Shown one piece after another: positions 6,349 to 25,900 of a stretch of 64,000 bases of DNA. A program made the position numbers and the translations under genes. Below the pieces are notes generated by a model. The model did no database searches. It saw only the letters and a list, made by a program, of their open reading frames with translations, and was not told where the DNA came from. Source of the DNA: an uncultured Acidobacteriia bacterium (GTDB lineage: Bacteria > Acidobacteriota > Terriglobia > Bryobacterales > Bryobacteraceae); the NCBI GenBank assembly GCA_903929755.1, contig CAIYVZ010000003.1, forward strand, positions 1 to 64,000. The letters are read 5' to 3'. Within the stretch, counting starts at the first letter, position 1, and every line of letters begins with the position of its first letter.

Positions 6349-7740
6349 CTAATCAATCGACCGAGGCAAAGCTCCCGCCGGCGTCGGGCTCACCTTCTTC
6401 TCTTTGGTGACGGCCCAGTCTCCGGCGATGGCGTCGGGGAAGGTCTTCATTTGGGTCTCGAGCTTGGCCATGATTTGGCGGACGATATCGGGATGAAGGT
6501 CGGCTACGTCGTAGCTTTCATCGGGGTCGGTGTCGAGGTCGTAGAGTTCCGGGTTCGTCAGCAGCAGATTGCGGAGCCCCATAGCGGGGTTGGGGCTGTA
6601 CGCTTTGCGGTTGTAGCGGGAGACGTGGAGCTTCCACTTCCCCCAGCGGGCGCACTGCAGATGGACGTCGTCAAAGTAGAGCAGGGGTTCGCGTTCGAGT
6701 TGCGCTGCTTCACCGGTCCAGAGCTTCCAGACGTTCATGCCGTCCATCGGCTTGTTGGGGGGCGTGGCTCCGCAGAGAGCGGCGATGGTGGGGGTCACAT
6801 CCAGCATGGACCCGAGGCCGGCGGAGACCTTACCTTTCGGAATGCGGCCTGGCATGGAGACGATGAACGGCTCGCGCACGCCGCCCTCCCAGGTCTCCCC
6901 TTTGCGGCCTCTGAGGCGACCGGAACTTCCCTGGTGCCAGGGACCGTTATCGCTGGAGAAGATCACGAGCGTATTGCGCGTCGCGCCCGTCTCCTGCAGG
7001 GTCTTCATTACTTCGCCCACGCTCCAGTCGAGTTCGGCCAGAACGTCACCGTAGATACCTCGCGGGGACTTGCCGCGGAAACGTTCGGAGGCTCCGAGCG
7101 GAATGTGCGGGAAGGTGTGCGGGAAGTAGAGGAAGAACGGGGCGCCTCCCTTTGAACCGGCCATGGATTCCCGGATGAATTTTGTGGCTTCTTCGGTGTA
7201 CTTGCGGGTGAGGGAGTTGAGGTCAGCCTCTGGCTCCACGACGGCGGTATCTTTCAGGAGAGGACGGGGCGTCATGTCGTTGCTGTAAGGGATGCCGAGA
7301 TAGTGATCGAAGCCTCGCTTGGTAGGCAGGTACTGCGGTGCCGATCCGAGATGCCATTTGCCGACGCACTGGGTCTTGTAACCCTTCGTCTTCAGCAGGT
7401 CGGCAAGGGTCTGCTCGTCGAGGTTGAGGCCGTCTTTGTCTTGCGGAAAAAAGACGCGCGGGACGCCGACCCGGGTGGGGTACCGGCCGGTGAGGAGCGA
7501 GGCGCGGGAGGGGGAACAGACGGGGTTGGCGGAGGTCCAGTTGGTGAAGCGGGTGCCTTCGGCGGCAAGCTTGTCGATATTGGGCGTGGAGAGTGTGGAG
7601 CCGTAGACGTGCAGGTCACCGAAGCCGAGATCGTCGGCGTAGATGAGCACGATATTGGGGGACGGGTCACCGGCGGCGGGACTGGCTTCAAGAAGGGCCG
7701 GAGCGGCGGCGAGCGTTTGCAAAAAATGGCGGCGATGCAT
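6349..7740 (-). CDS. Arylsulfatase-family sulfatase
   Basis: A 463-residue type I sulfatase that hydrolyses sulfate esters. The N-terminus (MHRRHFLQTLAAAPALLEA) looks like a twin-arginine-type export signal. Metal-site aspartates lie in IYADDLGFGD (D36, D37), and the formylglycine motif C-x-P-S-R is present as NPVCSPSRASLLTGR with C75 as the modified residue. GKWHLG and SSDNGPWHQ supply further active-site residues. The substrate cannot be told from sequence; relatives act on sulfated polysaccharides or aryl sulfates. It needs a formylglycine-generating enzyme or anaerobic maturase, and none is visible here. It is followed on the same strand by unrelated hydrolases and converges with the TPR gene, leaving about 48 bases between them. 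Confidence 0.9.
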   Translation of the reverse strand: MHRRHFLQTLAAAPALLEASPAAGDPSPNIVLIYADDLGFGDLHVYGSTLSTPNIDKLAAEGTRFTNWTSANPVCSPSRASLLTGRYPTRVGVPRVFFPQDKDGLNLDEQTLADLLKTKGYKTQCVGKWHLGSAPQYLPTKRGFDHYLGIPYSNDMTPRPLLKDTAVVEPEADLNSLTRKYTEEATKFIRESMAGSKGGAPFFLYFPHTFPHIPLGASERFRGKSPRGIYGDVLAELDWSVGEVMKTLQETGATRNTLVIFSSDNGPWHQGSSGRLRGRKGETWEGGVREPFIVSMPGRIPKGKVSAGLGSMLDVTPTIAALCGATPPNKPMDGMNVWKLWTGEAAQLEREPLLYFDDVHLQCARWGKWKLHVSRYNRKAYSPNPAMGLRNLLLTNPELYDLDTDPDESYDVADLHPDIVRQIMAKLETQMKTFPDAIAGDWAVTKEKKVSPTPAGALPRSID

Positions 7741-10462: not shown

Positions 10463-13234
10463 TTATCCCGTATTGTGAAGTCCGGCTGCGATGCCGTTCA
10501 TGGTGGACGCGATGGCGCGGTCGAGCCTGTCGTCAGTTTCACCAGCGCGTTTCCGGCGCAGCAGTTCGACCTGAATCAGACTGAGCGGATCCACGTAGGG
10601 GTTACGTAACTGAATGGAGCGCGCCAGAACAGGACTGCGTTCGAGCAGCACCGACGTGCCTTTGAGCGAGAAGATGACCCGTTTGGTGCGCTCAAACTCG
10701 CTCAACAGCATGCCGAACACCCGCGCGCGGACCTGCTCATCGCTAACCAGGCCCGAATACAATTCGGCAATGGACATGTCTGCCTTGGCCATAGCCAGTT
10801 CCACGTTGCTCAACATATCGGCAAACAGCGGAAACTGCTTCAGCATCCGCTGCAGCAGTTCAAACTCGTCGGTGCCGCGATTCATGAAACTTTCGATGGC
10901 ATAACCGACGCCGAACCACGCCGGAACCGCATGGCGGCTTTGCATCCATCCAAAGACCCAGGGGATGGCCCGGAGGTCTTCCACTTTGCGACTGCCGGCG
11001 CGTCGGCTGGGCCGGGAACCGATATGCGCGTGTTCCAGTTCGTTGACCGGCGTTGCCTCTTCAAAATAGCGCAGAACGTCGGGGTTCTCGGCAATACTCC
11101 GGCGGTAGAAGGCAAAGGCGTCAGCGGACATCACATCCATGCAGTGCAGTACGTCGGATGTCGGCGGAGAAGCTTCCGTACCGGGCCGTACAAAGGCCTC
11201 AAGGCTTGCCGCGAGCATCACTTCCAGGTTCCACTCGGCGAGCACCGGGTCAGAATATTTCCAGTTCAGAACTTCCCCTTGCTCTGTAATGCGGATGGCG
11301 CCGGAGAAGGCCCCTGGAGGCTGCGCCAGAATGGCGCGGTGCGTGGGCCCTCCGCCACGGCCCACAGTTCCACCACGGCCGTGGAACAACCGCAGCCGCA
11401 GGCCATATTCCCGGGCGGCCTCATGCAAAGCATGGTGCGCTTTGTACAACTCCCAGGTACTGGTGAACATGCCGCCGTCCTTATTGGAATCCGAGTAACC
11501 GAGCATGATCTCCTGCCATCCGTTCCAGGACTCGAGGAGTTTCGCATACTCCGGATGAGACCAGACCCTGCGCATCATTTCGGGAGCGCGCCGGAGCGCG
11601 TCAATGGATTCAAACAGAGGCACGGGCATGAGACCGGGATCATCACCGGATCCCGCAACACGGACCCCCGCCAGAGCGGCGATGCGGACCACGTTGAGAA
11701 TGTCGTCTTCGCTTTCTGTTCCGCTGATGATATGAGAGCGAATCACGTCACCACCGTGCAGTAACTTCTGCTGCGCGATGGCGCGCATCGTATCGAGCAG
11801 CTCACGCGACGCATCTGACAGGCTGCGGGCCAGGGCATCGGTGTTCCCGGAACTCTTGTCACGAATTTCAGCCAGAACACCGGCATGCACGTTTCGATGC
11901 TGGCGGACATCGAGCACGTAAAGTTTGAACCCAAAATGCCGAAATTGGAGCAAGAGCGGGTCCAGCAGGGCCTGCGCCAGTCTGATGCCCCCATTCTGCA
12001 TGAGGCTCTCACGAATCAAATTCAGGTCATTCCCGAATTCGGCAGGGGTCTGGTAGGCAGCTGCGGTGGGTGAGCCATCACGCGCCAACCGCAGCCGCAG
12101 GTGCATGAACGTAAGCAAACGCCTGTACCATTCGGCGGGCGAAGTCCGCTGCAGTTCGGCCGATTCCGGAAGGGATTGCGCATAGACATAGAGTTGCGCT
12201 TTGAGACTTAACGAAGCGGGGATCTGGCGAACAGACACACGCAGGCGACGCATCAGACTGCGGAGGGCCAACAGGTAGTAATCGAGGATGGTCTGCCTCG
12301 CCAGCGCAAGGGCCTCGCAGGTGCGGGCGGCCGTGGCAAACGGATTACCATCCCGATCGCCGCCGATCCATGAACCGAAGCGCACGCAAACGGGTAGCTG
12401 GGATGGGTCCAGGTGGAGACCGTAGACGCGGCTGAAGGAGTCAACAATCTCGTCACAGACCTTAGGGAGAGCCTCAAAGAGGGACAGCTGGTAGTACTCC
12501 AGGCCGAAGCGGATCTCATCGGACACGGTGGGGCGCTTCAGGCGGATGTCATCTGTCTGCCAGAGGCCGGTCACCTCGGCGAGAATCGCTTCCTGACAGC
12601 GGGCTGCTGTGGCGTCTGACAGCGGCAACTCATCGAGCGCCTCAAGGTTCTGCGCAATGAGGGCGCGCCTGGTGAGGACGGCCCGCCGCGCGAATTCCGT
12701 GGGATGGGCGGTAAACACAGGCTCCAGGGAAATGTGGCCGAGGGCTTCCAGAGCTGCTTCCCCGGAAATGCCCCAGGCTTTCAGGCGCAGCAGCGTGCCG
12801 TGAAATGTGCCGGCCAGCGGTGTGTGTTCGGCCTGCAACCCAGCGGCACGCCGCCGGCGTTTGCGATGATTGGTCTCCGCAAGATTGGTCAACTCAAAGT
12901 AGGTGGAGAACGCCTTTGTAACCCGATTGGCTGTTTCGGTATCGAGGGAGGCAACCAGGGCTTTGGCCTTCCCGATAAGCGGGCCGCCATGCTCGCGATG
13001 TTCAATGAGTAGTCGGCGCAACGATTCCACGGTTTCGAAGAGTCCGGGACCACACTGCTCAACCAGTACCTTCCCCAGCAGAATTCCGAGGGAACGAATG
13101 TCGCGCTTCAGCGGGAGTTCTTTGCGGCTGTCCCGAGTATCGGCGGTTAACTCCGCAAGACGCTCGTGCTGAATGGGGGCGGACCAAAAGGAGCTTAAGG
13201 CTGTTTCCGCATCTTGCCGGGTCGGCTCACTCAT
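10463..13234 (-). CDS. ppc: Phosphoenolpyruvate carboxylase
   Basis: Catalyses PEP + bicarbonate to oxaloacetate + phosphate, the main anaplerotic CO2 fixation step, in the cytoplasm. The 923-residue length fits the bacterial enzyme. Key motifs are in order: VFTAHPTE with the catalytic histidine at H177, RFGSWIGGDRDGNPF at about 286-299, IMLGYSDSNKDGG at 576-588, and the PEP-binding loop FHGRGGTVGRGGGP with H618 and R620; the protein ends with the conserved NTG. It sits 54 bases downstream of cysD and in line with dabB-dabA. The DAB importer delivers bicarbonate, which is this enzyme's substrate, so co-expression would make metabolic sense; this is inference from position. Confidence 0.97.
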   Translation of the reverse strand: MSEPTRQDAETALSSFWSAPIQHERLAELTADTRDSRKELPLKRDIRSLGILLGKVLVEQCGPGLFETVESLRRLLIEHREHGGPLIGKAKALVASLDTETANRVTKAFSTYFELTNLAETNHRKRRRRAAGLQAEHTPLAGTFHGTLLRLKAWGISGEAALEALGHISLEPVFTAHPTEFARRAVLTRRALIAQNLEALDELPLSDATAARCQEAILAEVTGLWQTDDIRLKRPTVSDEIRFGLEYYQLSLFEALPKVCDEIVDSFSRVYGLHLDPSQLPVCVRFGSWIGGDRDGNPFATAARTCEALALARQTILDYYLLALRSLMRRLRVSVRQIPASLSLKAQLYVYAQSLPESAELQRTSPAEWYRRLLTFMHLRLRLARDGSPTAAAYQTPAEFGNDLNLIRESLMQNGGIRLAQALLDPLLLQFRHFGFKLYVLDVRQHRNVHAGVLAEIRDKSSGNTDALARSLSDASRELLDTMRAIAQQKLLHGGDVIRSHIISGTESEDDILNVVRIAALAGVRVAGSGDDPGLMPVPLFESIDALRRAPEMMRRVWSHPEYAKLLESWNGWQEIMLGYSDSNKDGGMFTSTWELYKAHHALHEAAREYGLRLRLFHGRGGTVGRGGGPTHRAILAQPPGAFSGAIRITEQGEVLNWKYSDPVLAEWNLEVMLAASLEAFVRPGTEASPPTSDVLHCMDVMSADAFAFYRRSIAENPDVLRYFEEATPVNELEHAHIGSRPSRRAGSRKVEDLRAIPWVFGWMQSRHAVPAWFGVGYAIESFMNRGTDEFELLQRMLKQFPLFADMLSNVELAMAKADMSIAELYSGLVSDEQVRARVFGMLLSEFERTKRVIFSLKGTSVLLERSPVLARSIQLRNPYVDPLSLIQVELLRRKRAGETDDRLDRAIASTMNGIAAGLHNTG

Positions 13235-13288
13235 AAGAAGACATTTCAGGGATTAGGGCAATATAGCAGACTTTGAATTCCGGCTGCA

Positions 13289-14143
13289 TCAGAAATATCC
13301 TTCTCTCTTCCGATCTTCCATGGCGGCGGCTGACACCCTGTCGTCAGCGCGGCCCCCTCGCTCACTCACCCTGCTGGTCTGAATCTCGGCAACAATCGCT
13401 TCTATGCCGGAAGCTTCCGAAACCACGGCACCTGTGCAGGTCATATCACCGATTGTACGGAAGCGAATGCGGCACTTGTGGTACCGCTCCCCGGGCTTCA
13501 GCGCGATATAGTCGCACCGGGCCAGCAAGGTCCCGTCGCGCTCCAGGCACTCCCGCTCATGGGTAAAGTAAAGGTCGGACAGTTCCACCCCTTCCTGCTG
13601 TATGTACTGCCAGACATCCAGCTCCGTCCAGTTACTGATGGGGAACACGCGGAAATGTTCACCGGGATTCATGCGGGCATTGTAGAGTGACCACAACTCA
13701 GGACGCTGACTTCCTGGCTCCCATTGACCCAATTCATCACGCAGGGAAAAGAACCGCTCTTTGGCCCGAGCCTTCTCTTCATCGCGACGAGCACCACCAA
13801 TCGCGCAGTCAAAGCGGAACTCACGGATTGCATCCAGCAAGGTGACGCTCTGGAGTGCATTGCGGCTGGCGTCGGGGCCTTTTTGTTCCACCACCCTTCC
13901 CCGCCGAATCGAGTCCTCAACGCTGCGGACGATCAACCGGGTGCCGAGCTTCCTGACCCAACGGTCCCGGTACTCCAGGGTCTCTGGGAAATTATGCCCT
14001 GTGTCGATGTGCATCAAGGGAAATGGGATCCTGCCTGGCCAGAATGCCTTCCGAGCCAGGTGGCTGATCACGATGGAATCCTTGCCTCCGGAGAACAGCA
14101 GAACCGGACGTTCGAACTCTGCAGAACACTTCGCGCAGAACAA
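13289..14143 (-). CDS. cysD: Sulfate adenylyltransferase small subunit CysD, main part; 5' end frameshifted
   Basis: CysD is the catalytic ATP sulfurylase subunit (ATP + sulfate to APS + PPi), normally working with the GTPase CysN. Visible motifs are the N-type PP-loop LLFSGGKDS, HIDTGHNFPE, the signature FDCAIGGARRDEEKARAKER, ISNWTELDVWQYI, and the characteristic end KREGYF. This frame can only start at a TTG (14143). The natural start is the ATG at 14180, which overlaps the dabA stop as ATGA and reads THLDALEAEGIVVLREVF, the standard CysD N-terminus. The two frames join if one base near 14123 is removed, giving LREVF-AEFERPVLL. So there is either a genuine frameshift or a one-base sequence error. 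No cysN is present; ppc follows. Confidence 0.85.
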   Translation of the reverse strand: MFCAKCSAEFERPVLLFSGGKDSIVISHLARKAFWPGRIPFPLMHIDTGHNFPETLEYRDRWVRKLGTRLIVRSVEDSIRRGRVVEQKGPDASRNALQSVTLLDAIREFRFDCAIGGARRDEEKARAKERFFSLRDELGQWEPGSQRPELWSLYNARMNPGEHFRVFPISNWTELDVWQYIQQEGVELSDLYFTHERECLERDGTLLARCDYIALKPGERYHKCRIRFRTIGDMTCTGAVVSEASGIEAIVAEIQTSRVSERGGRADDRVSAAAMEDRKREGYF

Positions 14144-14180
14144 CGATACCTTCGGCTTCGAGAGCGTCGAGATGGGTCAT
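14120..14180 (-). pseudogene. cysD: Out-of-frame N-terminal piece of cysD
   Basis: Starts at ATG 14180-14178 and encodes MTHLDALEAEGIVVLREVF, which matches the usual N-terminus of CysD, before running out of frame at about 14123. The extra base lies in the stretch GTGTTCTGCAGAG (minus strand). Total length from 14180 to the stop is 892 bases, one more than a multiple of three, consistent with a single-base insertion. The ATGA overlap with dabA supports this as the real start. Confidence 0.75.
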
Positions 14181-16426
14181 CCGACGGGCATCGGCTCCCA
14201 AAGCCCGGCGGGCTTACGTTTGTGAAATGCCGTCCCTTCCATCGCAATCAGATGGATCCAGGCGTTTTCGACCAGTTGCTTTACCTGCGGATGAGCCGCC
14301 AGTACATCATCGATACGTGCTCGCGGCGCTTCAACAAAGACCTGGAGCCGCAGAGGTTCATGCACCCAGTTTTCACCATCATGAAGTGACTGCATCGGGA
14401 GCCCTGTTCTCAGGTCGCCGGCATTACCTTCCCAGATTCCGAACGTCCCCACCACGTTATGCAGCACCTTATTGCCGCTGCCGAATAATTCGTTATTGAC
14501 CGTGGACCCGAAGTACTGCAGATTGATCCAGCTGGCCACCACAACGGGAGCGGTCAGAATCAGGCTCAGCACCGAGCCATCCGGGTCGGCAGCCGAGTCA
14601 TAGTCATGCAGGAACGCACGTCCCCCGAGATCCAGAGATTGTGTTCTTGACCGCGGCGCGGCGATAAAGGCGGCATTGCCTGCCAGCCCCCATTCCGGCC
14701 GGACTTCGGACCAGTCCCTGCTTCGCCTCACGCCCTCGCGCCCCTGCATTTGTGATGCATTACGAAGCCAGGACTGCAACTCTCCGAGCTGCGCAGGTGC
14801 CAGCACCTCAGTGTCATAGAGCACTACTTCGTGGGTAGTTGTTATGTGCAGGCCGGCAATAAAGACGGTGTCTGCGGGAATTGCGATATTTCTGCGCTTC
14901 AGTTCTTCCCGAACCTCGGGATCGTTCATCAGCGCGGCCGCGAATCGTGCATTCACGTCACCTTTGTGTCCGCCGCATGCACCGCAATCGAGGCTGGAGC
15001 CGTAGGGGTTGTTCTCGGTGCTGCTGCCGTGCCCGCAGATGAGAACGACGGGAGCCAGTTTATGCGGGGCGAGGCTCATGTTGCGCAGAGCATCGGCCAC
15101 CAGCTGAACCCGCGACTCCAGCGGAATCTGCCATTTCAACTCCAGGCTCCCGACGACTTTGTCCGACCAGCCCAGCAAGCGTTTTGCGATCGCCCACCCA
15201 TACCAGAGTCCACCTGTTTCCACGGAAGGGAAACAGGCTGAGGCTGAACCGCGCAGGTTGCTCCACGCCCCGGAGAGCCAGTTCATTCCAGACTCTGGCT
15301 TCTCACTCTTTACCTGGTATCGCGGCGAAATCAGCACCGGGCAACGAGCGGAATCCTGGAATTCCAGAGCCATTCCGAAGAAGCCCGCGAAGCCGATGGT
15401 TTCGATCCCATCGGCCTGCGCTTCCAGGGCTCTGCGGTAGCCCTCCGAACGGACATCAATGCAGAACACGGCCTGCAGTCGCGTTCTTGCGACGCTCTGT
15501 TGCTCAGCGGGTGCGGTGGCAAGCTTTGCTGCCAGGGCCGAACGGAAAGTCCCCTCGGCTGCCAGTTGCGCCACATATCCTGCAGTGGTAAAAAAGGCGG
15601 GCGCGGAACTTCTCCGCCCTGCATGGTACCCGTCGGCAATTGCCAGCAACGCTGCTTCGTAGGCCAGACGAATCGCCAGCAATTGGCGTGTCAGGTTTTC
15701 TCCTGCCGTCTGTCGCTCGCGGTACACGGACCACGCACTCCAGCCGAAGATGCTCATTAGCTGCCGGTGCAGGAAGTCCCCGGCATCGGCGACAGGAACG
15801 TCCAACAGAAACAGCAACTGGGCGATCGCAGCCTCCTCGCACTCGGGCAGGGCGCGCACCAGCATCCGGAAGCCGCGCAGGCCATAGACCTCGGGGTTCA
15901 GATCGATTGAGGCGGCGTGCTTCCACGCCCGATAAAGCGATTCGTCCCGCCGGGGCATTGCCCACCGGCTCTGGGTACGATCGAAATAAGAGGAGCACCA
16001 CTTCGAAATTTCGTCAGTCACGAACCCTGCCCAATTCGTTCCCCTCACGTGGTCGAGCCAGTCTGCGACCGTCTGGATTCGAAGCGCCTGCTCATTCCGG
16101 GCCAGTTCGGCTTCCAGCCACGATGCGGCGTGCAGAGGTGCCGGGAGACCAGTGCAGTCGGTGTATGCAGCCGCGATCTGAGCCTCGGCGATTCGCCCTG
16201 CCTGGCATTGCCTGCCGTAGTATTCAGGGGCCATCAGCATCGTGCCATGCCCAACCGTGTCCATCAGACGGGCAGCCTGGGGGAACGTGCGGTCGGTCAG
16301 CCCGAGGAACGGGTTGACGGCAACAAAGTTCTGCAAAGGCCACAATGGCGGAATCCGTTTGCAGGCGGCTTCAATGGCAGTGGCAATTGCTTCGTTTGAT
16401 AGACCTGGCACAGATTGAACCGGCAT
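14177..16426 (-). CDS. dabA: DabA, DUF2309 subunit of a DAB-type inorganic carbon importer
   Basis: Cytoplasmic, membrane-associated, carbonic-anhydrase-like subunit that, with DabB, powers one-way hydration of CO2 to bicarbonate for uptake (known for Halothiobacillus DAB systems). The N-terminus (PPLWPLQNFVAVNPFLGL) is the family signature. The four expected zinc-site residues are present: C322 and D324 in VFCIDVRSEGYRRAL, H466 in ICGHGSSTENNPYGSS, and a cysteine (C481 or C484) in LDCGACGG. At 749 residues it is somewhat shorter than the long DabA proteins. I prefer ATG 16426 over the GTG one codon earlier because AAAGGAG lies six bases upstream. Its start overlaps the dabB stop (TGATG) and its stop overlaps the cysD start (ATGA). 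Confidence 0.9.
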   Translation of the reverse strand: MPVQSVPGLSNEAIATAIEAACKRIPPLWPLQNFVAVNPFLGLTDRTFPQAARLMDTVGHGTMLMAPEYYGRQCQAGRIAEAQIAAAYTDCTGLPAPLHAASWLEAELARNEQALRIQTVADWLDHVRGTNWAGFVTDEISKWCSSYFDRTQSRWAMPRRDESLYRAWKHAASIDLNPEVYGLRGFRMLVRALPECEEAAIAQLLFLLDVPVADAGDFLHRQLMSIFGWSAWSVYRERQTAGENLTRQLLAIRLAYEAALLAIADGYHAGRRSSAPAFFTTAGYVAQLAAEGTFRSALAAKLATAPAEQQSVARTRLQAVFCIDVRSEGYRRALEAQADGIETIGFAGFFGMALEFQDSARCPVLISPRYQVKSEKPESGMNWLSGAWSNLRGSASACFPSVETGGLWYGWAIAKRLLGWSDKVVGSLELKWQIPLESRVQLVADALRNMSLAPHKLAPVVLICGHGSSTENNPYGSSLDCGACGGHKGDVNARFAAALMNDPEVREELKRRNIAIPADTVFIAGLHITTTHEVVLYDTEVLAPAQLGELQSWLRNASQMQGREGVRRSRDWSEVRPEWGLAGNAAFIAAPRSRTQSLDLGGRAFLHDYDSAADPDGSVLSLILTAPVVVASWINLQYFGSTVNNELFGSGNKVLHNVVGTFGIWEGNAGDLRTGLPMQSLHDGENWVHEPLRLQVFVEAPRARIDDVLAAHPQVKQLVENAWIHLIAMEGTAFHKRKPAGLWEPMPVG

Positions 16427-17817
16427 CACAAACTCCTTTCTGTGTCATGTACTGGCCAAAGCGCCGTTGTCAGGCGGTTCGCCAGGGTATTGAAGTAAAA
16501 CCCATTTCGGGCATGAATGTAGAAGCTGCTGACGGCATCTGTCTGCCAAATCCGCGGCAACTGGCTCTGTAGTAAGGCCGCTAAAAAGAACAGCATCAGG
16601 ATCGCGGCGGAAAGCGTCTGGTTGTGTTGAATATGTACCGGCGCCACTATGGTGGAAGCGGCGGTTTCCAGCCCGAGGTACACGGCAGTTACGAAGGCCC
16701 CGGCCAGGCCCGCAGTGAGCGCGTGCCAGCCTCGTTTCGAGTCCCAGAGTAACTGGGCAAGGCCAAGGAAGAAGATCCCGCTGAGCACGGGCTGGTCAAA
16801 CTGTTTGAAGCTCACGAGCCAGGCCAGCGTTACCGGCAACAAGCCCGCAACCAGAACCGCCGCGCTTTTTGCGGTATCCGTTCGAGGTGGCTCCGAGGAA
16901 ACCACGCTGCCGGAAGAGAGGAAAGCGTACGCTTTGTAAAGCGAGTGCGCAACCAGATGGAGAAGCGCCAGATGAAATGCGCCCAGGCCGCATTCCAACA
17001 TCATGAAACCCATCTGCGCCACTGTTGAGAAGGCGAGGCAGCGCTTCACGCTGGCCTGCGTAAGAGCCACCACGGACCCGAAGAGTGCAGTGAAAGCTCC
17101 AACTACCGTCAGCGCCATAAGTGCCGCAGGGGACAGGGAGATCAGGGGGCTCAGCCGGATCACCAAAATCCCGCCCGCGTTGATGATACCGGCATGCATC
17201 AGAGCAGAAACCGGCGTTGGGGTCTCCATGGTGTCCGGCAGCCAGCTGTGGAACGGAAACTGAGCGGATTTCAGCATGGCGGCAAAGACCAAGAGGCACG
17301 CGGCAAGACTAACTGACGCAGGAATGTGTTCCCCGTCGCGAAGCGATTGAGCAGCCGCGAAGAGATCCTGGAAGTTCCAGGTGCCGAATGCGCGGTACGT
17401 CAGGATCAGCGCGCCCGCCAGAGCGCAGTCTCCCAGCCTGCTGACCAGGAACTTCTTCCGCGCCGCCAGCAGGGCTCCGGGCCTGGCCCCATAGAACTGC
17501 AGGAGCTGATGAAGGCTGAGGCTCATGGCCAGCCAGGCGAGGGCGAAGAAGAGAAGGTTCTGCGCCAGGATGAGGGCGAACACGCAACTGCCCGTTCCGC
17601 ACAACCAGAAGGAGAATCGGGCCTGCCCGGGATCCCCGGCGAGATAGCGTCGCGAGTACCGGCAGATGACGGCTAACAGCAGTGTGCTGAGAAGCAGCAG
17701 GACATCGGTCAACCGGTCGAGAAAAGGCATGGCGGCCAGCGCGCTGGCCACACACAACCAGGAGAAGATCTCTCCTGCTGCGGCGGCCCGGGTGTGCTTC
17801 GTACCTGTTATTTGCAT
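16426..17817 (-). CDS. dabB: DabB, NuoL-like proton-channel subunit of the DAB importer
   Basis: Integral membrane protein of 463 residues related to the antiporter-like subunits of complex I (proton-translocating NADH dehydrogenase family) and thought to couple proton entry to DabA. About 12 hydrophobic segments are visible. The conserved core KSAQFPFHSWLPDTMETPTP continues as VSALMHAGIINAGG, followed by a lysine in ASVKRCLAFSTVAQMGFM and a histidine in LHLVAHSLYKAYAFLSSG, which are hallmark positions of the family. Its neighbour is a DUF2309 gene and no other nuo genes are present, which separates it from a complex I subunit. It is the first gene of the minus-strand group and is divergent from a LysR gene 74 bases away, the probable regulator. 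Confidence 0.88.
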   Translation of the reverse strand: MQITGTKHTRAAAAGEIFSWLCVASALAAMPFLDRLTDVLLLLSTLLLAVICRYSRRYLAGDPGQARFSFWLCGTGSCVFALILAQNLLFFALAWLAMSLSLHQLLQFYGARPGALLAARKKFLVSRLGDCALAGALILTYRAFGTWNFQDLFAAAQSLRDGEHIPASVSLAACLLVFAAMLKSAQFPFHSWLPDTMETPTPVSALMHAGIINAGGILVIRLSPLISLSPAALMALTVVGAFTALFGSVVALTQASVKRCLAFSTVAQMGFMMLECGLGAFHLALLHLVAHSLYKAYAFLSSGSVVSSEPPRTDTAKSAAVLVAGLLPVTLAWLVSFKQFDQPVLSGIFFLGLAQLLWDSKRGWHALTAGLAGAFVTAVYLGLETAASTIVAPVHIQHNQTLSAAILMLFFLAALLQSQLPRIWQTDAVSSFYIHARNGFYFNTLANRLTTALWPVHDTERSL

Positions 17818-17891
17818 CCTGTTGCCAGATTAACGGGGACAGTACTCTTTCTTCAAGCAGAAGATATATATGCTAACGTTCTATTTAATAT
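17818..17891. promoter_or_regulatory. Divergent promoter region between dabB and the LysR gene
   Basis: This 74-base gap is the only place for the promoters of both divergent genes. It is much more AT-rich than its surroundings; the stretch 17862-17893 contains ATATAT on both sides of a GCTAACGTTC core, a rough inverted arrangement. LysR regulators usually bind such divergent gaps at T-N11-A sites, but I cannot fix a specific operator by eye. Confidence 0.4.
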
Positions 17892-18794
17892 ATGATTCTG
17901 GCGGACGCAGCTCTGAACTATCACCACTTGCGTTATTTCCGCGCGATTGCTCACGAAGGCGGCCTGACCAAGGCTGCGGCCCGCCTGCATGTTGCCCAGT
18001 CCGCCCTCAGCATTCAGCTCCGCCACCTGGAAGAGAACCTGGGCCACCCCCTGTTTCTCCGCAAGAATCGAAAGCTTGAGCTGACCGAAGCCGGACAACT
18101 GGCGCTTCAGTATGCAGACTCGATCTTTCGCACCGGTGACGAACTGGTGGATACCCTTCGGCACCAGTCCCCGCGGGCGCGGCAGGTTCTGCGAATTGGA
18201 ACCGTCGCCACCCTCTCCCGCAACTTTCAGTGGGAATTTATCAAGCCGCTTCGCACCAGTCGCGACATCCAGCTTGTCCTGCGGTCCGGCACCGTACGAG
18301 ATCTTATCGCGCAACTCCGCAATCACGAAGTGGATGTCGTCCTCTCCAACCAGGCCATGCGGCGTGACGCTGATACGGGACATCACAGTCATCTGCTGGC
18401 CGAGCAGGAGATCAGTCTGGTAGGCCGTCCTGTGGCGGGCCAGGCCCCGTTCCGTTTTCCCGAAGACCTGCGAAAGACTCCGGTGATTCTGCCCAGCCTC
18501 GAGAGCGAGGTGCGCGCATCTTTCGACCTGATCATGGACCAGGCAGGACTTCGCCCGATCATCGCCGCCGAGGTGGATGATATGGCCATGTTGCGCGTCC
18601 TGGCCCTGCGTCTTCGCGCGGTTGCTTTGGTGCCTAAGGTGGTGGTTCAGGATGAACTGCGTTCCGGCGCGCTGGTTGAGCGCTACCGTCTTTCGGATGT
18701 GAAGGAACGCTTTTACGCAATCACACCAACTCGCACCTTCCCGAATGTCCTGGTAAGGGACCTGATCGCGCACGCAACGAATAAGAAACGTTGA
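17892..18794 (+). CDS. LysR-family regulator (NhaR-like), probable regulator of dabBA
   Basis: A 300-residue LysR-type transcription factor. The winged helix-turn-helix occupies about residues 8-68 (LNYHHLRYFRAIAHEGGLTK, AARLHVAQSALSIQLRHLEE, LTEAGQLALQYAD), followed by a linker helix and a LysR substrate-binding domain. The LNYHHLRYF opening and the overall N-terminus resemble NhaR-type members, a type I recall being found beside DAB genes. It is divergent from dabB with a 74-base gap, the usual LysR arrangement, so regulation of dabB-dabA-cysD-ppc is a reasonable inference. The inducer is unknown. ATG 17892 has no obvious ribosome-binding site, and the next in-frame start would cut into the DNA-binding domain. 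Confidence 0.85.
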   Translation: MILADAALNYHHLRYFRAIAHEGGLTKAAARLHVAQSALSIQLRHLEENLGHPLFLRKNRKLELTEAGQLALQYADSIFRTGDELVDTLRHQSPRARQVLRIGTVATLSRNFQWEFIKPLRTSRDIQLVLRSGTVRDLIAQLRNHEVDVVLSNQAMRRDADTGHHSHLLAEQEISLVGRPVAGQAPFRFPEDLRKTPVILPSLESEVRASFDLIMDQAGLRPIIAAEVDDMAMLRVLALRLRAVALVPKVVVQDELRSGALVERYRLSDVKERFYAITPTRTFPNVLVRDLIAHATNKKR

Positions 18795-18862: not shown

Positions 18863-20293
18863 TTAAACCAGCAGTTTCCGCACCACATTGCCGGCCACGT
18901 CCGTTAAGCGGAAGTCGCGGCCCATGTAGTTGTACGTGAGGCGTTTGTGGTCGAGGCCGAGGCAATGCAGGAGCGTCGCCTGCAGGTCATGGAGGTGGAT
19001 GGGGTCCTCTTCGATGTTGAAGCAGAGGTCGTCTGTCTTTCCTACAGTTTGACCAGCCTTCAGGCCGCCTCCCGCCATGAACATGCTGAAGGCTACGGGG
19101 TGGTGGTCGCGTCCGGCGTTGTCAGCTTCCGAGGGGACGCGAATTTCCGACATCGGGGTCCGACCGAATTCCCCGCCCCAGACGACTAACGTGTCGTCCA
19201 GCATGCCGCGTTGCTTCAGATCTTTCAGGAGCGCGGCGACGGGCTGGTCGGTGATGTCGCAGTTCTTTTTGAGCTTCTTGTCGATCTGCGTGTGGTCGTC
19301 CCAGCTGGCGTGCATCAGCATGACGCAGCGGACTCCGCGTTCCACCAGACGACGCGCCAGCAGGCAGTTGGTTGCGTAGGGTTTGGTGGGTTCCTTGTTC
19401 ACTCCGTACATTTCGAGGGTCGCGGGAGATTCCTTTGAGAAATCGAGGAGTTCCGGGGCGGACATCTGCATCCGGTAAGCGAGTTCGTAGGAGTTGATTC
19501 TGGACGCAATTTCGCGGTCGCCCGTTTTCTCCTGGTGCTCCTGATTGAGATCGCGAAGGGCATCGAGCGAGGCCCGTTGCGTGCGCTGCGTGACGCCAGG
19601 CGGATTCGAGAGGTACAGGATGGGATCGCCACTGCCGCGGAACATGGTGCCGGAGTAAGTGGAGGGCAGGAAGCCTGAGGAGAAGTTGGATTCACCACCG
19701 CTGGTACCGTTCCCGGAACTGAGTACGACGAAGCCGGGGAGGTTCTGCGATTCGCTGCCGAGGCCATAAACAACCCAGGAACCGAGGCTGGGGCGACCCA
19801 CCTGCAGCGTTCCGGCGAAGAGCATGAGCTGGCCGGGGTGGTGGTTAAAAGCTTCCGTGTGGAGCGAACGGACCACGGTGATGTCGTCGGCCACGGTGGA
19901 GAGATGCGGCAGATAGTCACTGAGTTCGATGCCCGACTGACCGTATTTTTTGAAAGGCCGGCGGCTGGCGAGGACCGCTGCGGTGGGCTTAATGAACGCG
20001 AGCTGCAGGTTCTTCGTGAGCGAATCGGGGAGCGGCTTACCGTCCCATTTCGCCAGTTCGGGCTTGGGGTCAAAAAGGTCGAGCTGGCTGGGGCCACCTT
20101 CCTGGAAGAGGAAGATGATGTTCTTCGCTTTACCGGGGAAGTGGGATTTGCGGGGCGCGAGAGGGTTCAGATCGGCGGCGTAGCCATCCTTCGCCAGCAG
20201 CTGCGCGAGCGCGATGGTGCCGATGCCTCCGGCCGCTTCGCAAAAGAAGTTGCGGCGTGTCTGGATCTGGCGAAACTTGAGGTCGTCGAACAT
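18863..20293 (-). CDS. DUF1501 protein, twin-arginine exported
   Basis: A 476-residue protein of the DUF1501 family, a sulfatase-like/alkaline-phosphatase-fold group abundant in Planctomycetes and Acidobacteria and almost always encoded beside a DUF1549/DUF1553 cytochrome protein. The start at 20293 (MFDDLKFRQIQTRRNFFCEA) was chosen because it gives the usual twin-arginine signal TRRNFF; the long upstream extension of the frame is low-complexity Arg/Pro sequence overlapping the neighbouring gene. Family motifs seen are IFLFQEGGPSQLDLFDPKP, HHPGQLML, VVWGGEFGRTP and GRDHHPVAFSM. The function is not established. It lies 19 bases after the DUF1553 gene in the same orientation, so the two form an operon. 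Confidence 0.88.
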   Translation of the reverse strand: MFDDLKFRQIQTRRNFFCEAAGGIGTIALAQLLAKDGYAADLNPLAPRKSHFPGKAKNIIFLFQEGGPSQLDLFDPKPELAKWDGKPLPDSLTKNLQLAFIKPTAAVLASRRPFKKYGQSGIELSDYLPHLSTVADDITVVRSLHTEAFNHHPGQLMLFAGTLQVGRPSLGSWVVYGLGSESQNLPGFVVLSSGNGTSGGESNFSSGFLPSTYSGTMFRGSGDPILYLSNPPGVTQRTQRASLDALRDLNQEHQEKTGDREIASRINSYELAYRMQMSAPELLDFSKESPATLEMYGVNKEPTKPYATNCLLARRLVERGVRCVMLMHASWDDHTQIDKKLKKNCDITDQPVAALLKDLKQRGMLDDTLVVWGGEFGRTPMSEIRVPSEADNAGRDHHPVAFSMFMAGGGLKAGQTVGKTDDLCFNIEEDPIHLHDLQATLLHCLGLDHKRLTYNYMGRDFRLTDVAGNVVRKLLV

Positions 20294-20312
20294 GGTAATT
20301 ATTCCCGCTGGT

Positions 20313-22772
20313 TTATTCACGAGTGATGAATTCGTCGAGGTTGAGAAGAATGCGGCTGACGCCGATCCAGGGTGCGATGGCAGTGGGATCCTGCTGGCGC
20401 AGGGTCGCCTGCGTGTCGAAGTAGTTGGCCAGACGTGCGGTTTCCTTCGCCGTCGGCGCACGATTGAGAGCGGCTTTATACACGAAGTTCAGTCGGGCGG
20501 TGAAGTCTCCGGTGGCTTCGGTCTCCACTCGGTTGGCGAGAGCTTCGGCGGCTTCGAAGAAGGCCGGGTCATTTAAGAGATTGAGCGACTGCAGCGCCGT
20601 ATTGGAGAGGCGGCGACGGGTGCAGGCAAGCGTGGTATCAGGCGCATCAAAGTTAACGAACAACGGGTACGGGGTAGTCCGCTGGTAGTGGACATACAGG
20701 CCACGGCGGTACTTCTCACGGCCGGGGCTTTCGATCCACTTTTTCACGGAGTAGCCGAGTTCGGCGACGCCCACAGGCTGGAAGGGGCGGATACTGGGAC
20801 CACTGACATCGGTATTCAGAAGCCCACTGACGGCGAGGACTTCATCGCGAATCAGTTCGGCGGAGAGCCGCACGCGTGACTGGCGGGCGAGCAGGACGTT
20901 CTCCGGGTCCCGCTGGTCCAGATCGGGGCGGGCCGTGGAAGCCTGACGGTAGGTTCGTGAAAGCACAATCTCGCGAATCAGAGCCTTGTTGCTGAAACCG
21001 AGGCGGCGGTACTCGGTGGCCAGCCAGTCGAGGAGTTCGGGATGGGAAGGCTTGTCGCCCTGCAGACCGAAGTCATCGGAGGTGCTGACGATGCCACGCC
21101 CGAAGAGTTCCTGCCAGAGGCGGTTGACGGCGACGCGGGCGGTGAGCGGGTTTTCGGGAGCCATAATCCACTTCGCCAGATCAAGGCGGGTGGGGGCGGG
21201 CTTGTCGCCGTTGGGGAGGAAGCCGGGAACCGCGGGCTGGACTTCGTCACCAGGATTCTTCCAGTCGCCACGGACGGCAATGTGGGCGGCACCGTAATCG
21301 TTGCGCGACTCCATCGCGTACGCCTGGCTGAGCGCGGGGAAGTTTTTCTCTATCTCGTCGAGCTTCTCTTTGGCTTCTTTGAGTTTGGCGGTCAGGTCCT
21401 TATCTTTGCCGATGCGAGGACCCGGCGTGCGGATGAAACGGGAGGTGATGCGGCGGGCGGCGGCGAGATCACGCTTCTCGACCGGGGTGCGGAGAATGCG
21501 CTCGCCGTGGTCAGTACCGGCGCGAATCTCGGTCACCTGGAAATCCCAGTCCAGCTCAATGCCGGGATGGTCCATGGCCTGCAGCATGTCGGCTTCCCAC
21601 TGCTTCTGTAGTTCCGGGATGTTGTATTTGGCGGACCAATCGGCGCGCTGTTTTTCGTAGCCGGGGCGGGCGCGCAAATACGAACCCACTTCGCCGGGGA
21701 GCGGGGCATCGATATCCACTTCATCGGCGGCGTTGAAGTAGGCCAGCATGCTGTAGAAGTCGCGCTGTTTAATGGGGTCGTATTTGTGGTCGTGGCACTG
21801 GGAGCAACGGACGGTGATGCCGAGGAAGGTGGTTCCGGTGGTGCCAACGCGGTCGATCAACTGGTCGAAGCGGGCTTCGCGGCGGTCAACGCCGGCTTCG
21901 CGATTCGTCATGGCGTTGCGATAGAAGCCGGTGGCGACGCGGTCGTCAGCCGAAGCTCCGGGCATCAGGTCACCCGCGATTTGGAGGGTCACAAAACGGT
22001 CGTAGGGAAGATCGCGGTTGTAGGCGTTGATGACCCAATCGCGGAAGCGCCAGGCCCAGGGGCGCACCAGATCTTTTTCGAAGCCATCGCTGTCGGCGTA
22101 GTGGGCCATGTCAAGCCAGGGCCGGGCCCATTTCTCACCGTAGTGGGGACTGGCGAGCAGGCGGTCCACCTGACGCTCCAGAGCGCCGGGTCGGGTATCG
22201 GCGAGAAATTCGGCGGTCTCCTGCGGGGTGGGCGGCAGACCGGTAAGATCCAGAGAGACGCGGCGGAGAAGGGTGGCTTTGTCGGCATCGGGGGAGGGCG
22301 CGACGCCTTCCTTTTCGAGGCGGGCGAGGATAAAGTTGTCGATTGCGTTGACGGGCCAGGCAGTCAGCTTCACCGGAGCCGACGCGGGGCTCTGCACGGG
22401 CTCCCAGGCCCAGTGTTTATTGGGAGTCGCGTTGGCTGGCCAGGTGGCGCCTTCGTCGACCCAGCGGGTCAGGAGCGCAACCTGGGCATCGCTGAGGGTT
22501 GCCCCGGTGGGAGGCATCACCTTGCCGGCTGTCCCTTTCACCATGGCGATGAGGCGGCTCTCGGCGGCTTTACCGGGCTGGATGACGCGGCGGGCGGAGG
22601 CGCGGTCGTCGAGCCGCAGGTTGGAGAACTGTTGTTTGGGGCCGTGGCAGAGGAGGCACTTCTGCTGGAAGAGAGGCTGGATCTCGCGGACGAAATCGAC
22701 GTTGGGGGCGCGCATCTGCGCAAGAGCGGGGAGCGTGAGCGCGAAAAAGGGCAGTACAAAACGGAACTGCAT
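20313..22772 (-). CDS. DUF1549/DUF1553 protein with planctomycete-type cytochrome c domain (PSCyt1)
   Basis: An 819-residue exported protein. The chosen start (22772) opens on a signal peptide MQFRFVLPFFALTLPALAQ; the frame is open for another 93 codons upstream but that part looks random and would cross the divergent promoter. A single CxxCH haem site follows (C39-x-x-C42-H43 in QKCLLCHG), with LRLDDRASA and GKVMPPTGATLS typical of PSCyt1. DUF1549 comes next (FILARLEKEGVAPSP, RVSLDLTGLPPTP, YGEKWARPWLDMAHYADSDG, RCSQCHDHKYDPI) and DUF1553 at the C-terminus (ARVAVNRLWQELFGRGIV, PSHPELLDWLA, RTYRQAS). Function is unknown; a periplasmic redox or catabolic role is assumed for the family. Confidence 0.9.
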   Translation of the reverse strand: MQFRFVLPFFALTLPALAQMRAPNVDFVREIQPLFQQKCLLCHGPKQQFSNLRLDDRASARRVIQPGKAAESRLIAMVKGTAGKVMPPTGATLSDAQVALLTRWVDEGATWPANATPNKHWAWEPVQSPASAPVKLTAWPVNAIDNFILARLEKEGVAPSPDADKATLLRRVSLDLTGLPPTPQETAEFLADTRPGALERQVDRLLASPHYGEKWARPWLDMAHYADSDGFEKDLVRPWAWRFRDWVINAYNRDLPYDRFVTLQIAGDLMPGASADDRVATGFYRNAMTNREAGVDRREARFDQLIDRVGTTGTTFLGITVRCSQCHDHKYDPIKQRDFYSMLAYFNAADEVDIDAPLPGEVGSYLRARPGYEKQRADWSAKYNIPELQKQWEADMLQAMDHPGIELDWDFQVTEIRAGTDHGERILRTPVEKRDLAAARRITSRFIRTPGPRIGKDKDLTAKLKEAKEKLDEIEKNFPALSQAYAMESRNDYGAAHIAVRGDWKNPGDEVQPAVPGFLPNGDKPAPTRLDLAKWIMAPENPLTARVAVNRLWQELFGRGIVSTSDDFGLQGDKPSHPELLDWLATEYRRLGFSNKALIREIVLSRTYRQASTARPDLDQRDPENVLLARQSRVRLSAELIRDEVLAVSGLLNTDVSGPSIRPFQPVGVAELGYSVKKWIESPGREKYRRGLYVHYQRTTPYPLFVNFDAPDTTLACTRRRLSNTALQSLNLLNDPAFFEAAEALANRVETEATGDFTARLNFVYKAALNRAPTAKETARLANYFDTQATLRQQDPTAIAPWIGVSRILLNLDEFITRE

Positions 22773-22805
22773 GATCGATTTGATTTTAGTCCATAACAGG
22801 GGTGG

Positions 22806-22834
22806 TTGACTCCGGATTTTGGCAATGATATCGC
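22806..22834 (+). promoter_or_regulatory. Candidate sigma-70-like promoter for the second TonB receptor
   Basis: In the 147-base divergent gap, TTGACT at 22806-22811 is followed after 17 bases by TATCGC at 22829-22834, about 85 bases before the receptor ATG. The -35 match is good and the -10 match poor, so this is a guess from spacing. A TATAAC at about 22887 could serve as another -10. Confidence 0.3.
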
Positions 22835-22919
22835 CATAACGAAAGTTTTTCGGCGAATGCGTGATCGAAGCTCGGGTCCAGGCCAGTATAACGATAACGC
22901 GCCAGGGGAGTAATTTTAC

Positions 22920-25900
22920 ATGAGAAGAATGTTGCGCAGCAGCCTCGTCGCTGCTGTATTGGGTAGTGGAATGTTCCTGCTCGGCCAGGGGGCATTGTTC
23001 GCCCAGGTACAGTCGGGACGCATTGTGGGAACAGTGTACGACCCGCAGCACGCCTCTGTTCCGGGTGCCACCGTGACGATTACCGAAACCGCGACCAACG
23101 TGGCGCGCAAAGTAACGGCTGACGGCTCAGGCGACTACGTGGTGACCCCGTTGCTGCCGGGCATCTACTCCGTGAGCGCGAGCTCCGCAGGCTTTCAGAC
23201 CACGGTTCGGAACGGAATTGAGCTGACAGTGGCGCAGGCCGCCCGCGTCGATATGGAACTGCGGATCGGCGAGACGACGACGCAGGTGGAGGTGACGACG
23301 GAAGCGGCGTTGCTGGCGACCGAATCGGCAACCCTGGGCCAGGTGATTTCGACCCAGCAAATTACAGATCTGCCTCTGAACGGGCGCAAGTTCACGGAAT
23401 TGGGCCGCATGACGCCGGGTGTGACGCTGCTGCCCGCGACGGGCAACGTGCAACGCGTGCGACCGGAACAGGTGAACGGCAACGTGATCAGCGGCGTGCC
23501 GGGGTCGCAGACAACGTTTCTTCTGGACGGTGTGGACGTGACGGAACAGCACCAGGGCGGAACCTGGATCCAGACTTCAGTGGATGCGCTGCAGGAGTTC
23601 AGCGTGATGCAGAATGCGTATTCGTCTGAGTATGCAAGAGCCGGCGGGTCGTTCAATGTTTCGACGAAGAGTGGCGGCAACAGGCTGACGGGCAACGCAT
23701 TTGAATTCTTGCGAAACGGCCAACTGGATGCACGGGATTTCTTTGCACCGGCGCGAACCGTACTGAAGCGGAATCAGTTCGGCGGGACGCTGGGGGGGCC
23801 TGTGTTGATCCCGCGAGTTTACAACGGGCGCAACCGGACGTTCTTTTTTGTCAGTTACGAAGGGGAGCGGACACGGCAGGGGCTGATCCAGAACTCTGTG
23901 GTTCCGACTGCGGCGCAGAGGGCGGGCGATTTCAGCGCCCCTGGCCTGGCAAAGATTTATGATCCGTTGACGAGCGTGGGGACCACGAATGCGCGAACGC
24001 AGTTCCCCGGCAATATCATCCCGGTGAATCGCCTGGCCACCACCGCGACGTACTTCAATAAGTACATTCCGCTGGCGAATACGGCGGGGGGCACCGCCAT
24101 CTTTGCACCGTCCTACGCATACAACCAGGACCAGTGGACGATGCGCGGGGATCAGGAATTGACCGGCAACCACAAGCTATTTATGCGCGTGAGCCTGGTG
24201 AGAAACGCTGACAGCACTCCGGGAGCCTTCCCGGCGCTCGGATCCACGCAGTTATCGGGCCCGGCACGCAACATTGCCGGAGCGCTGACGAGCAACCTGC
24301 GGGCGAACATGATTCATGAGTTCCGCTTCAGCATGTTGTACGGCGAGTATCGCTCGACGGCATATTTCCAGGGCCAGGGCGCGACGTTTAATAAGGAAGC
24401 CGGCCTGACGGGTCTCGAAACCAATCAGGACGCTTCCATTTCCAGTCTGCCCGCGTTTTCGTGGTCAGGCCTGGCTGGCTTCTCGGGCAATGCGGGTGAC
24501 GGGCGGCCGAAGTGGCAGAACCGCTCGGCCAATGAAATTACCGACACGCTGACGTGGGTGAAGGGCAAGCATATTGTGAAGGTGGGAACCCGGATCCACT
24601 ATTACAAGCCGCTGTTCACCGATTCACGGACGCAGAACGGAGCTTATTCGTTCACGGGGATTGGCACTGAGAACCCGGCGTCCACGGCGGGTACCGGCGA
24701 TGCCTTTGCTGACTGGATGCTGGGTTATCCGGCCAACGGGAGCCGGTCCAATCCGGCCACATGGTGGGGTGGATACGGTACCTACTGGCACTTCTTTGTG
24801 CAGGATGACGTAAAGATCAGCAACCGCCTGACGTTGAATATCGGACTGCGTTACGAGTACACGCCGTGGCTGAATGGCTACAAGGGCCAGGTGGCTACTT
24901 TTGACCCGAAGAGGGCGAAGTCCATTATTGTGGCGAGCGAAACGGACCAGATTCAGCTGGATGCGCAGCCGCTGGCGAAGGTCGGGTATGACCTGTACAA
25001 GGATCTGATCCAGACCAGCAGCCAGGCTGGTTTACCGTTGAGCATTACTGAACAGACGAAGGCGAACTGGGCTCCGCGTATTGGCCTGGCGTGGCGGCCT
25101 GTTGGGGACAAGACCGTGATTCGCGGCGGGTACGGCATTTTCTATGAATCGGAAGGCACCAGCGGCCGGCTGAACTTCAACTTCCTGCCGTTCAATGTCT
25201 CGGAGACGGTGAATGCGGATCGTGGAGTGAAACCGACGCGAACGCTGGCGAATTTCTTCCTGGGTGCGCCCTTTGGGTCCGCCGTTACCAATGCGGCGTG
25301 GGTGCCGGTTCCCACAAAGGTGAGGATGCCGTATGACCAGCACTGGAACCTGGGCATTCAGCAGCAGGTGATGCCGAAGTTGCTGGTGGAACTGGATTAC
25401 GTCGGTAACAGAGGCTTATTCCTGCCGGGCACGGACAACATCAATTTCCCGGAGGCGGGTGCGGGGACCATTCAAACGCGGCGGCCTTATCCGCGGTTCG
25501 GCACCATTGCCTACAACACCCAGGATTCGGCGAGTATCTATCATTCGCTGCAGGCCAAGGTGGAGAAGCGGCTGTCGGCCGGCTTCTGGACAATGCTGGC
25601 TTACACGTATTCGAAGACCATTACGTTTGCCGCGACGCCGGCGGTTGGCGGCAACTACGGCTGGGAGCGGGCGCTGACAGGCTTCGATGTTCCGCAGAAT
25701 GTGGCGATCAGCTTCGGGTATGACCTGCCCTTCGGTAAAGGACGGCAGTTCCTGCATTCAAACGCGGTTGCCGATAAGGTGATTGGCGGCTGGCAGATGC
25801 AGGGGATCTGGAACTATCGGAGCGGAACTCCTTACACGCCAACGGTATCGCGCGATGTGGCGAATAACGGTATTGGCGGGCAGAGGCCGAACCGAATTGG

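Follow-up and report, generated by a model that had tools for sequence, protein, structure and literature searches.

A DAB-type gene pair beside phosphoenolpyruvate carboxylase in an uncultured member of the Bryobacteraceae: a probable CO2-hydrating supply of bicarbonate for biosynthesis

The window analysed here is a 64,000-nucleotide stretch of DNA from an uncultured Acidobacteriia bacterium of the Bryobacteraceae, with genes numbered on its forward strand. Its minus strand carries the two genes of a DAB-type inorganic carbon system, a cysD-like paralogue and the gene for phosphoenolpyruvate (PEP) carboxylase (PEPC), in the order dabB, dabA, (cysD), ppc, and a lysR gene diverges from dabB. 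The best explanation, to which we assign a probability of roughly 0.63, is a CO2-hydrating pump driven by the proton motive force (PMF) that supplies PEPC and other bicarbonate users. dabB and dabA would encode a vectorial carbonic anhydrase (CA), in which protons moving through DabB and the 'finger' of DabA drive one-way hydration of CO2 at a buried zinc site in DabA, so that CO2 of respiratory or external origin would be trapped as cytoplasmic bicarbonate. The bicarbonate would be spent on biosynthetic carboxylations, no CO2-fixing RuBisCO having been found in the host. Its nearest and probably main consumer would be the co-directional PEPC (PEP + HCO3- to oxaloacetate, anaplerosis); PurE-PurK would be added as bicarbonate users in relatives, and the set is probably under the control of the divergent LysR. 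It was as concentrators of carbon for RuBisCO that DAB pumps were worked out, and the reasons offered for their presence in heterotrophs have rested largely on staphylococcal physiology. The repeated pairing with bicarbonate-consuming enzymes provides genomic evidence for biosynthetic supply and names likely customers, in compact dab operons in which the idea becomes testable.

The preliminary description of this DNA, made from the sequence alone, had labelled the pair a CO2/bicarbonate importer. We compared both subunits with the solved HnDabA2-DabB2 complex of Halothiobacillus neapolitanus (PDB 9rd0). The membrane subunit, a NuoL/Mrp antiporter relative, is encoded by dabB (17817-16426, minus strand; PF00361, 167 bits); the adjoining dabA (16426-14177, minus strand; PF10070, 765 bits, E 1.5e-229) encodes the zinc-dependent, beta-CA-like subunit, here of a short type with 749 aa counted from the ATG. 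The two families lie side by side, as expected of a DAB system, and the proteins match 9rd0_A and 9rd0_B with E values of 4.4e-150 and 6.3e-75 respectively. Numbered from the ATG, DabA residues C322, D324, R326 and E403 align with C351, D353, R355 and E444 of HnDabA2, and H466, C481, H527 and L581 with H524, C539, H585 and L658. By the residue roles given in the accessible part of the structure paper (PMC13144422), the Cys, His, Cys zinc ligands and the Asp-Arg dyad are kept, as are the finger glutamate (E403) and the conserved leucine; all are invariant across 14 short-type sequences. C322, D324, H466 and C481 had been correctly singled out as zinc-site residues in the preliminary description, which had also listed C484; this cysteine is conserved, but the accessible part of PMC13144422 names no zinc-ligand role for it. 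Of three water-relay residues named for HnDabA2, S356 and H585 are kept and D590 is not. In DabB, 10 of the 11 proton-path and ion-pair residues tested are identical and the remaining one changes from I to L, while a glutamate missing from DabB2 is likewise missing here.

In the portion of PMC13144422 available to us, DAB2 is described as a PMF-driven CA that takes CO2 and does not need Na+ for activity. The window proteins keep most of the DAB2 residues compared, and for this reason we favour a trap that hydrates CO2 over an importer of bicarbonate. An alternative is that the pair serves ion or pH homeostasis, or works as a Na+/HCO3- symporter of the kind proposed for MpsAB of Staphylococcus aureus (PMC6689103, seen in part), with bicarbonate as a secondary matter. 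The kinship of DabB with Mrp/Nuo antiporter subunits would fit, as would NhaR being the best, sub-threshold model for the LysR protein. We regard this alternative as very unlikely, because the zinc site, the Asp-Arg dyad, the finger glutamate and 10/11 DabB residues are as in proton-coupled DAB2, which did not need Na+ (PMC13144422), and because bicarbonate-using enzymes are among the neighbours of dab.

A DabA tree, built by a quick method with support by the Shimodaira-Hasegawa-like approximate likelihood ratio test only, places the window protein in a supported 43-row clade together with HnDabA2. It stands nearest there to Verrucomicrobial DabA, and a long distance separates it from the long-type proteins of other Bryobacterales loci. 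The closest short-type loci, among the matches listed, carry the names Bryobacterales bacterium F-183, Acidobacteriia and Acidobacteria. A structure of DabA predicted from 14 close relatives was not good enough for a fold search (predicted local distance difference test score 61.7). The long type is a second DabA in Bryobacterales, with open frames of ∼930-1000 aa and dabA placed before dabB. The 10 long-type rows tested (L022, L024, L029, L031, L032, L037, L041, L043, L045 and L050) form a deep lineage separate from HnDabA2, and we rejected the idea that they represent the same system; rows L048 and L049 (f3) form another separate lineage. At one locus of the order (L012, genome G036) a larC-type nickel insertion protein (PF01969) stands in the row after dabA. 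The 26 order loci not holding the short type gave no ppc, cysD or lysR match.

The ppc gene (13234-10463, minus strand; PF00311, 893 bits) is full length by NF000584 (858 bits, cut-off 815). Its product contains TAHPTE, GYSDSNKD and FHGRGGTVGRGGGP, which we take to be the motifs of the catalytic His, Lys and Arg of PEPC. It is the sole PEPC found in its own genome, where PYC_OADA (the pyruvate-carboxylase family) has no match, so that the linked ppc alone represents the two families tested that form oxaloacetate with bicarbonate. Open reading frames and family profiles confirm the gene order on one strand and the divergent lysR given in the preliminary description. The dabB stop overlaps the dabA start as TGATG, the dabA stop overlaps the cysD ATG (14180) as ATGA, and 54 bases separate cysD from ppc. 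The four genes are thus laid out like a single operon and would presumably be co-transcribed. A scan for promoters and terminators returned signals no better than those in shuffled sequence, and there were no Rfam matches at gathering scores between 8000 and 20000 of the window.

The linkage of dab and ppc, whose conservation had been proposed as a check, recurs in relatives; it is thus not unique to this genome, the outcome that the preliminary description had held would refute its reading. In 19 congeneric genomes, short-type DabA occurs in 11, and three more match weakly through long-type DabA. ppc was matched in six, as five full-length genes and one fragment (G203), the latter on a contig other than that of dab. 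All five full-length genes stand at the dab locus, and one dab-ppc locus was found in each of two other phyla. By simple arithmetic, chance alone would bring a gene to within 6 kb of any one locus in ∼0.2% of 6 Mb genomes. ppc lies downstream in G000 (dabB-dabA-cysD-ppc) and in G065 (dabB-dabA-cysD-purE-purK-orf-ppc), and is tail-to-tail with lysR in G086, G101 and G054. The ppc of G054 is 32% identical to that of the window and belongs to a different lineage in the ppc tree, hence ppc genes of two separate origins occupy the place beyond lysR. The five pairings are not independent owing to the relatedness of the genomes, but the changes of side and of lineage speak for repeated events.

Beyond the genus we examined 78 further DAB loci (the best 80 among the DabA matches listed, leaving out L066 and L069 as duplicates of G190 and G008), scoring neighbours at 120 bits. 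Many of the contigs are short, which makes the neighbour counts lower bounds. ppc lies directly downstream of dabA in at least two, L070 (Verrucomicrobia) and L115 (Planctomycetaceae). In the ppc tree these two fall apart from each other and from both genus lineages, L115 being partial and long-branched. The pairing in two further phyla suggests that the converter feeds ordinary biosynthesis. purE-purK is near dab in at least five loci (L067, L071, L072, L102 and L113), downstream on the same strand in four of them and 5-8 kb upstream in L071; cysD is near in at least 10 and cysN in at least two. Twelve comparison proteins from Bryobacterales genomes (SerA, a RecN fragment, MsrA, MsrB, RimO, TatD, LarC, CysK, PepA, an ABC ATPase, beta-CA and PYC) gave 0/78 at the same threshold, with one RecN match just under it at 108 bits.

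Several observations weigh against our explanation. A neighbouring ppc is missing from the majority of the DAB loci examined, and in many genomes only one of the two genes occurs. Within the genus, five of the 11 short-DAB genomes have no ppc match, and one more, G203, has only its fragment. In the three relatives with ppc beyond lysR, that position places the gene outside the dab operon. In an order sample of 200 genomes, ppc occurs in 21 and DabA in 74, with both in only six; 68/74 DabA genomes lack ppc and 15/21 ppc genomes lack DabA. Five of the six with both are the dab-ppc genomes of the genus, and G098 has a long-type DabA on a contig other than that of ppc. General co-occurrence of DabA and PEPC across the order was thus not found; what stands out is the physical linkage in the genus and in scattered members of other phyla. 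Among 50 genomes behind the DAB loci, 35 have ppc, only two of them within 10 kb of dab. PYC and beta-CA, two bicarbonate-related queries, were absent near dab in all 78 loci, which speaks against any general tendency of such genes to cluster. The window's own genome has a beta-CA match, as does each of the 15 genus genomes in the order sample, so bicarbonate can form without DAB. Finally, D590 of HnDabA2, proposed to act in water/proton relay, is replaced by His in the window DabA, with Asn or Asp in relatives.

Some of these points fit a broader role, in which every carboxylase of the cell, namely acetyl-CoA carboxylase, carbamoyl-phosphate synthase, PurK and PEPC, would draw on DAB as a stand-in or reinforcement for CA, with ppc as one convenient co-regulated client rather than the purpose. 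The scarcity of ppc near most DAB loci and the presence of purE-purK among the neighbours are consistent with this, as is the mutual complementation of MpsAB and CA in the accessible text of PMC6689103. However, a pairing drawn from four places in the ppc tree, together with all five full-length genus genes, appears more than incidental, and the ubiquity of beta-CA in the genus sample argues that DAB adds to CA and does not simply replace it. DAB as a plain substitute for a missing CA is therefore unsupported, and the broader role seems to us the less likely of the two readings. PEPC as the favoured customer of a CO2-hydrating pump is also consistent with the distribution of the two oxaloacetate-forming families: ppc or PYC_OADA is present in 9/11 short-DAB genus genomes and in 2/8 others (one-sided p 0.02), or in 8/10 and 0/3 of genomes with a completeness of 90% or more and a contamination of 5% or less (p 0.035). 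Two cautions lessen the weight of this comparison: the p values ignore relatedness, and 0.02 becomes 0.055 without the G203 fragment. Within the genus, PEPC and PYC_OADA hardly ever occur together: G065 alone matches both, and the PYC_OADA frame there, at just 671 aa, may not be a pyruvate carboxylase.

On balance, the observations of the preliminary description were confirmed and its interpretation is partly supported. For this clade, in which dab-ppc recurs, it can well be inferred that the system feeds anaplerosis, but this is not a general rule. PEPC does stand in the row as the nearest consumer; other users of bicarbonate, purE-purK among them, are linked to dab as well, and most DAB loci examined have none nearby.

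The preliminary description had also noted that no RuBisCO was in view, and had held that RuBisCO genes elsewhere, co-regulated with DAB, would speak against the anaplerotic role. We found no CO2-fixing RuBisCO in the whole draft genome (6.86 Mb, 97.9% complete), so its absence from view extends to the draft, and the form I or II enzyme expected of an autotrophic carbon-concentrating mechanism was not seen. The sole PF00016 match (225 bits) has OiaX as its best NCBIfam model, adjoins an OiaK-like kinase gene and reads SSGQTVRQVPG at the site where true RuBisCO carries its loop-6 lysine. OiaX is a RuBisCO-like 3-oxo-isoapionate-4-phosphate decarboxylase; at 425 bits against a curated cut-off of 700, the protein is a relative and not a certified member. 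Among the 50 DAB genomes, a chosen part of those behind the 78 loci with completeness not given, PF00016 scores 408-470 bits in three and only 199-236 bits in six. We take the higher range as RuBisCO and the lower as RuBisCO-like, by which the window's own gene groups with the latter and 47/50 have no RuBisCO-grade match. In the genus, PF00016 is matched in 10/19 genomes, at 234 bits or less in every case. A role in autotrophic CO2 fixation, with a RuBisCO encoded away from the window, could cite the single PF00016 match but is extremely improbable: the match scores as RuBisCO-like in the company of a kinase, its loop-6 site reads as above, and the idea could be saved only by a gene in the 2% that the draft lacks. 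We rejected a RuBisCO-linked carbon-concentrating mechanism on these grounds. No carboxysome genes were found among the window proteins scanned; no genome-wide search for them was made. The OiaX-related protein and its kinase neighbour (L001/L151, contig C51 of the same genome) probably belong to an apionate-type sugar-acid pathway.

The divergent lysR (17892-18794, plus strand; PF00126 and PF03466) is probably the regulator of the dab set. Its best NCBIfam model, NhaR, scores 132 bits, under the cut-off of 219. Of the 59 further loci that extend 1.3 kb or more upstream of dabB, 36 have a divergent lysR match there, the one at L132 being just 27% identical. The 74-base intergenic region (17818-17891) contains a conserved interrupted palindrome, CTTC-N5-GAAG, that resembles a LysR box; LysR boxes have the form T-N11-A. 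Aligned for eight genus members, the region gives 92 columns, which take in a few coding bases at either end, with a mean column identity of 82%.

The cysD-like paralogue (14180-13289, minus strand, open frame 14143-13289) belongs to the CysD family by TIGR02039 (402 bits, cut-off 396.6), although its frame is interrupted near the start. Compared with relatives, in which the frame runs on from this ATG, the window gene appears to be shifted by one base near 14125, through either a fault of the assembly or a real lesion. No cysN adjoins the gene; a cysN over its cut-off lies on contig C19 of the same genome with a cysD of its own, whose product is 49% identical to the dab-linked one. CysD-like genes also stand downstream of dabA at L067, L089, L097, L106, L107, L108, L118, L119, L126 and L140, with cysN near in two of these 10 (L118 and L140); the contigs of L089 and L108 end too soon to show whether one is there. 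Dab-linked CysD from Acidobacteriota, Pseudomonadota and Planctomycetota falls at two or more places in the CysD tree, and perhaps at four, with L126 and L140 long-branched. This recurrent neighbour is an unexplained lead. One could imagine the whole locus as a heterotrophic bicarbonate-feeding module, with a proton-driven CO2 trap, one regulator and PEPC or PurE-PurK, in which the CysD-like protein is a repurposed adenylylating partner instead of an enzyme of sulfate assimilation; we consider this combined proposal doubtful. A DUF6671-like cluster follows dabA or the dab-linked cysD at nine loci (L097, L107, L111, L121, L081, L132, L133, L140 and L105), the name (PF20376) coming from the one member scanned. 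Adjoining lysR, the window holds a DUF1501 gene and a PSCyt1/PSCyt2/PSD1 gene pair (18863-23051), and on the other flank of the row a sulfatase (6349-7740).

The idea that DAB-type systems serve biosynthesis in heterotrophs is already in print: in 2019 MpsAB was proposed to supply bicarbonate for anaplerotic and purine carboxylations in non-autotrophs (PMC6689103, seen in part). In the open-licence literature, a scope outside which the 2019 Nature Microbiology paper on DAB falls, we found no earlier description of dab linked to ppc or purK. For dabAB of Halomonas sp. CUBES01, the authors suggest bicarbonate provision or pH upkeep, and the accessible part of their report (PMC11338360) mentions no ppc linkage. 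MpsAB of S. aureus resembles the window system as a DAB homologue in a non-autotroph with a proposed anaplerotic and purine supply. It differs in that Na+ symport is proposed and in that the available text of PMC6689103 mentions no linkage to ppc or purEK. MpsAB has been compared with CA, and S. aureus has no CA (PMC8552792, in the part available), whereas the window genome has one. DAB2 of H. neapolitanus is also among the closest known systems, and the window system shares with it the dabB-dabA pair, the zinc site, the dyad, the finger glutamate, 10/11 DabB residues and a place in the same large DabA clade. The window proteins are shorter, with 749 aa in DabA and 463 in DabB where the solved chains, which may carry tags, have 870 and 551, and D590 is replaced by His. 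Unlike DAB2, the window pair belongs to a host in which no true RuBisCO was found, and its row continues into cysD and ppc.

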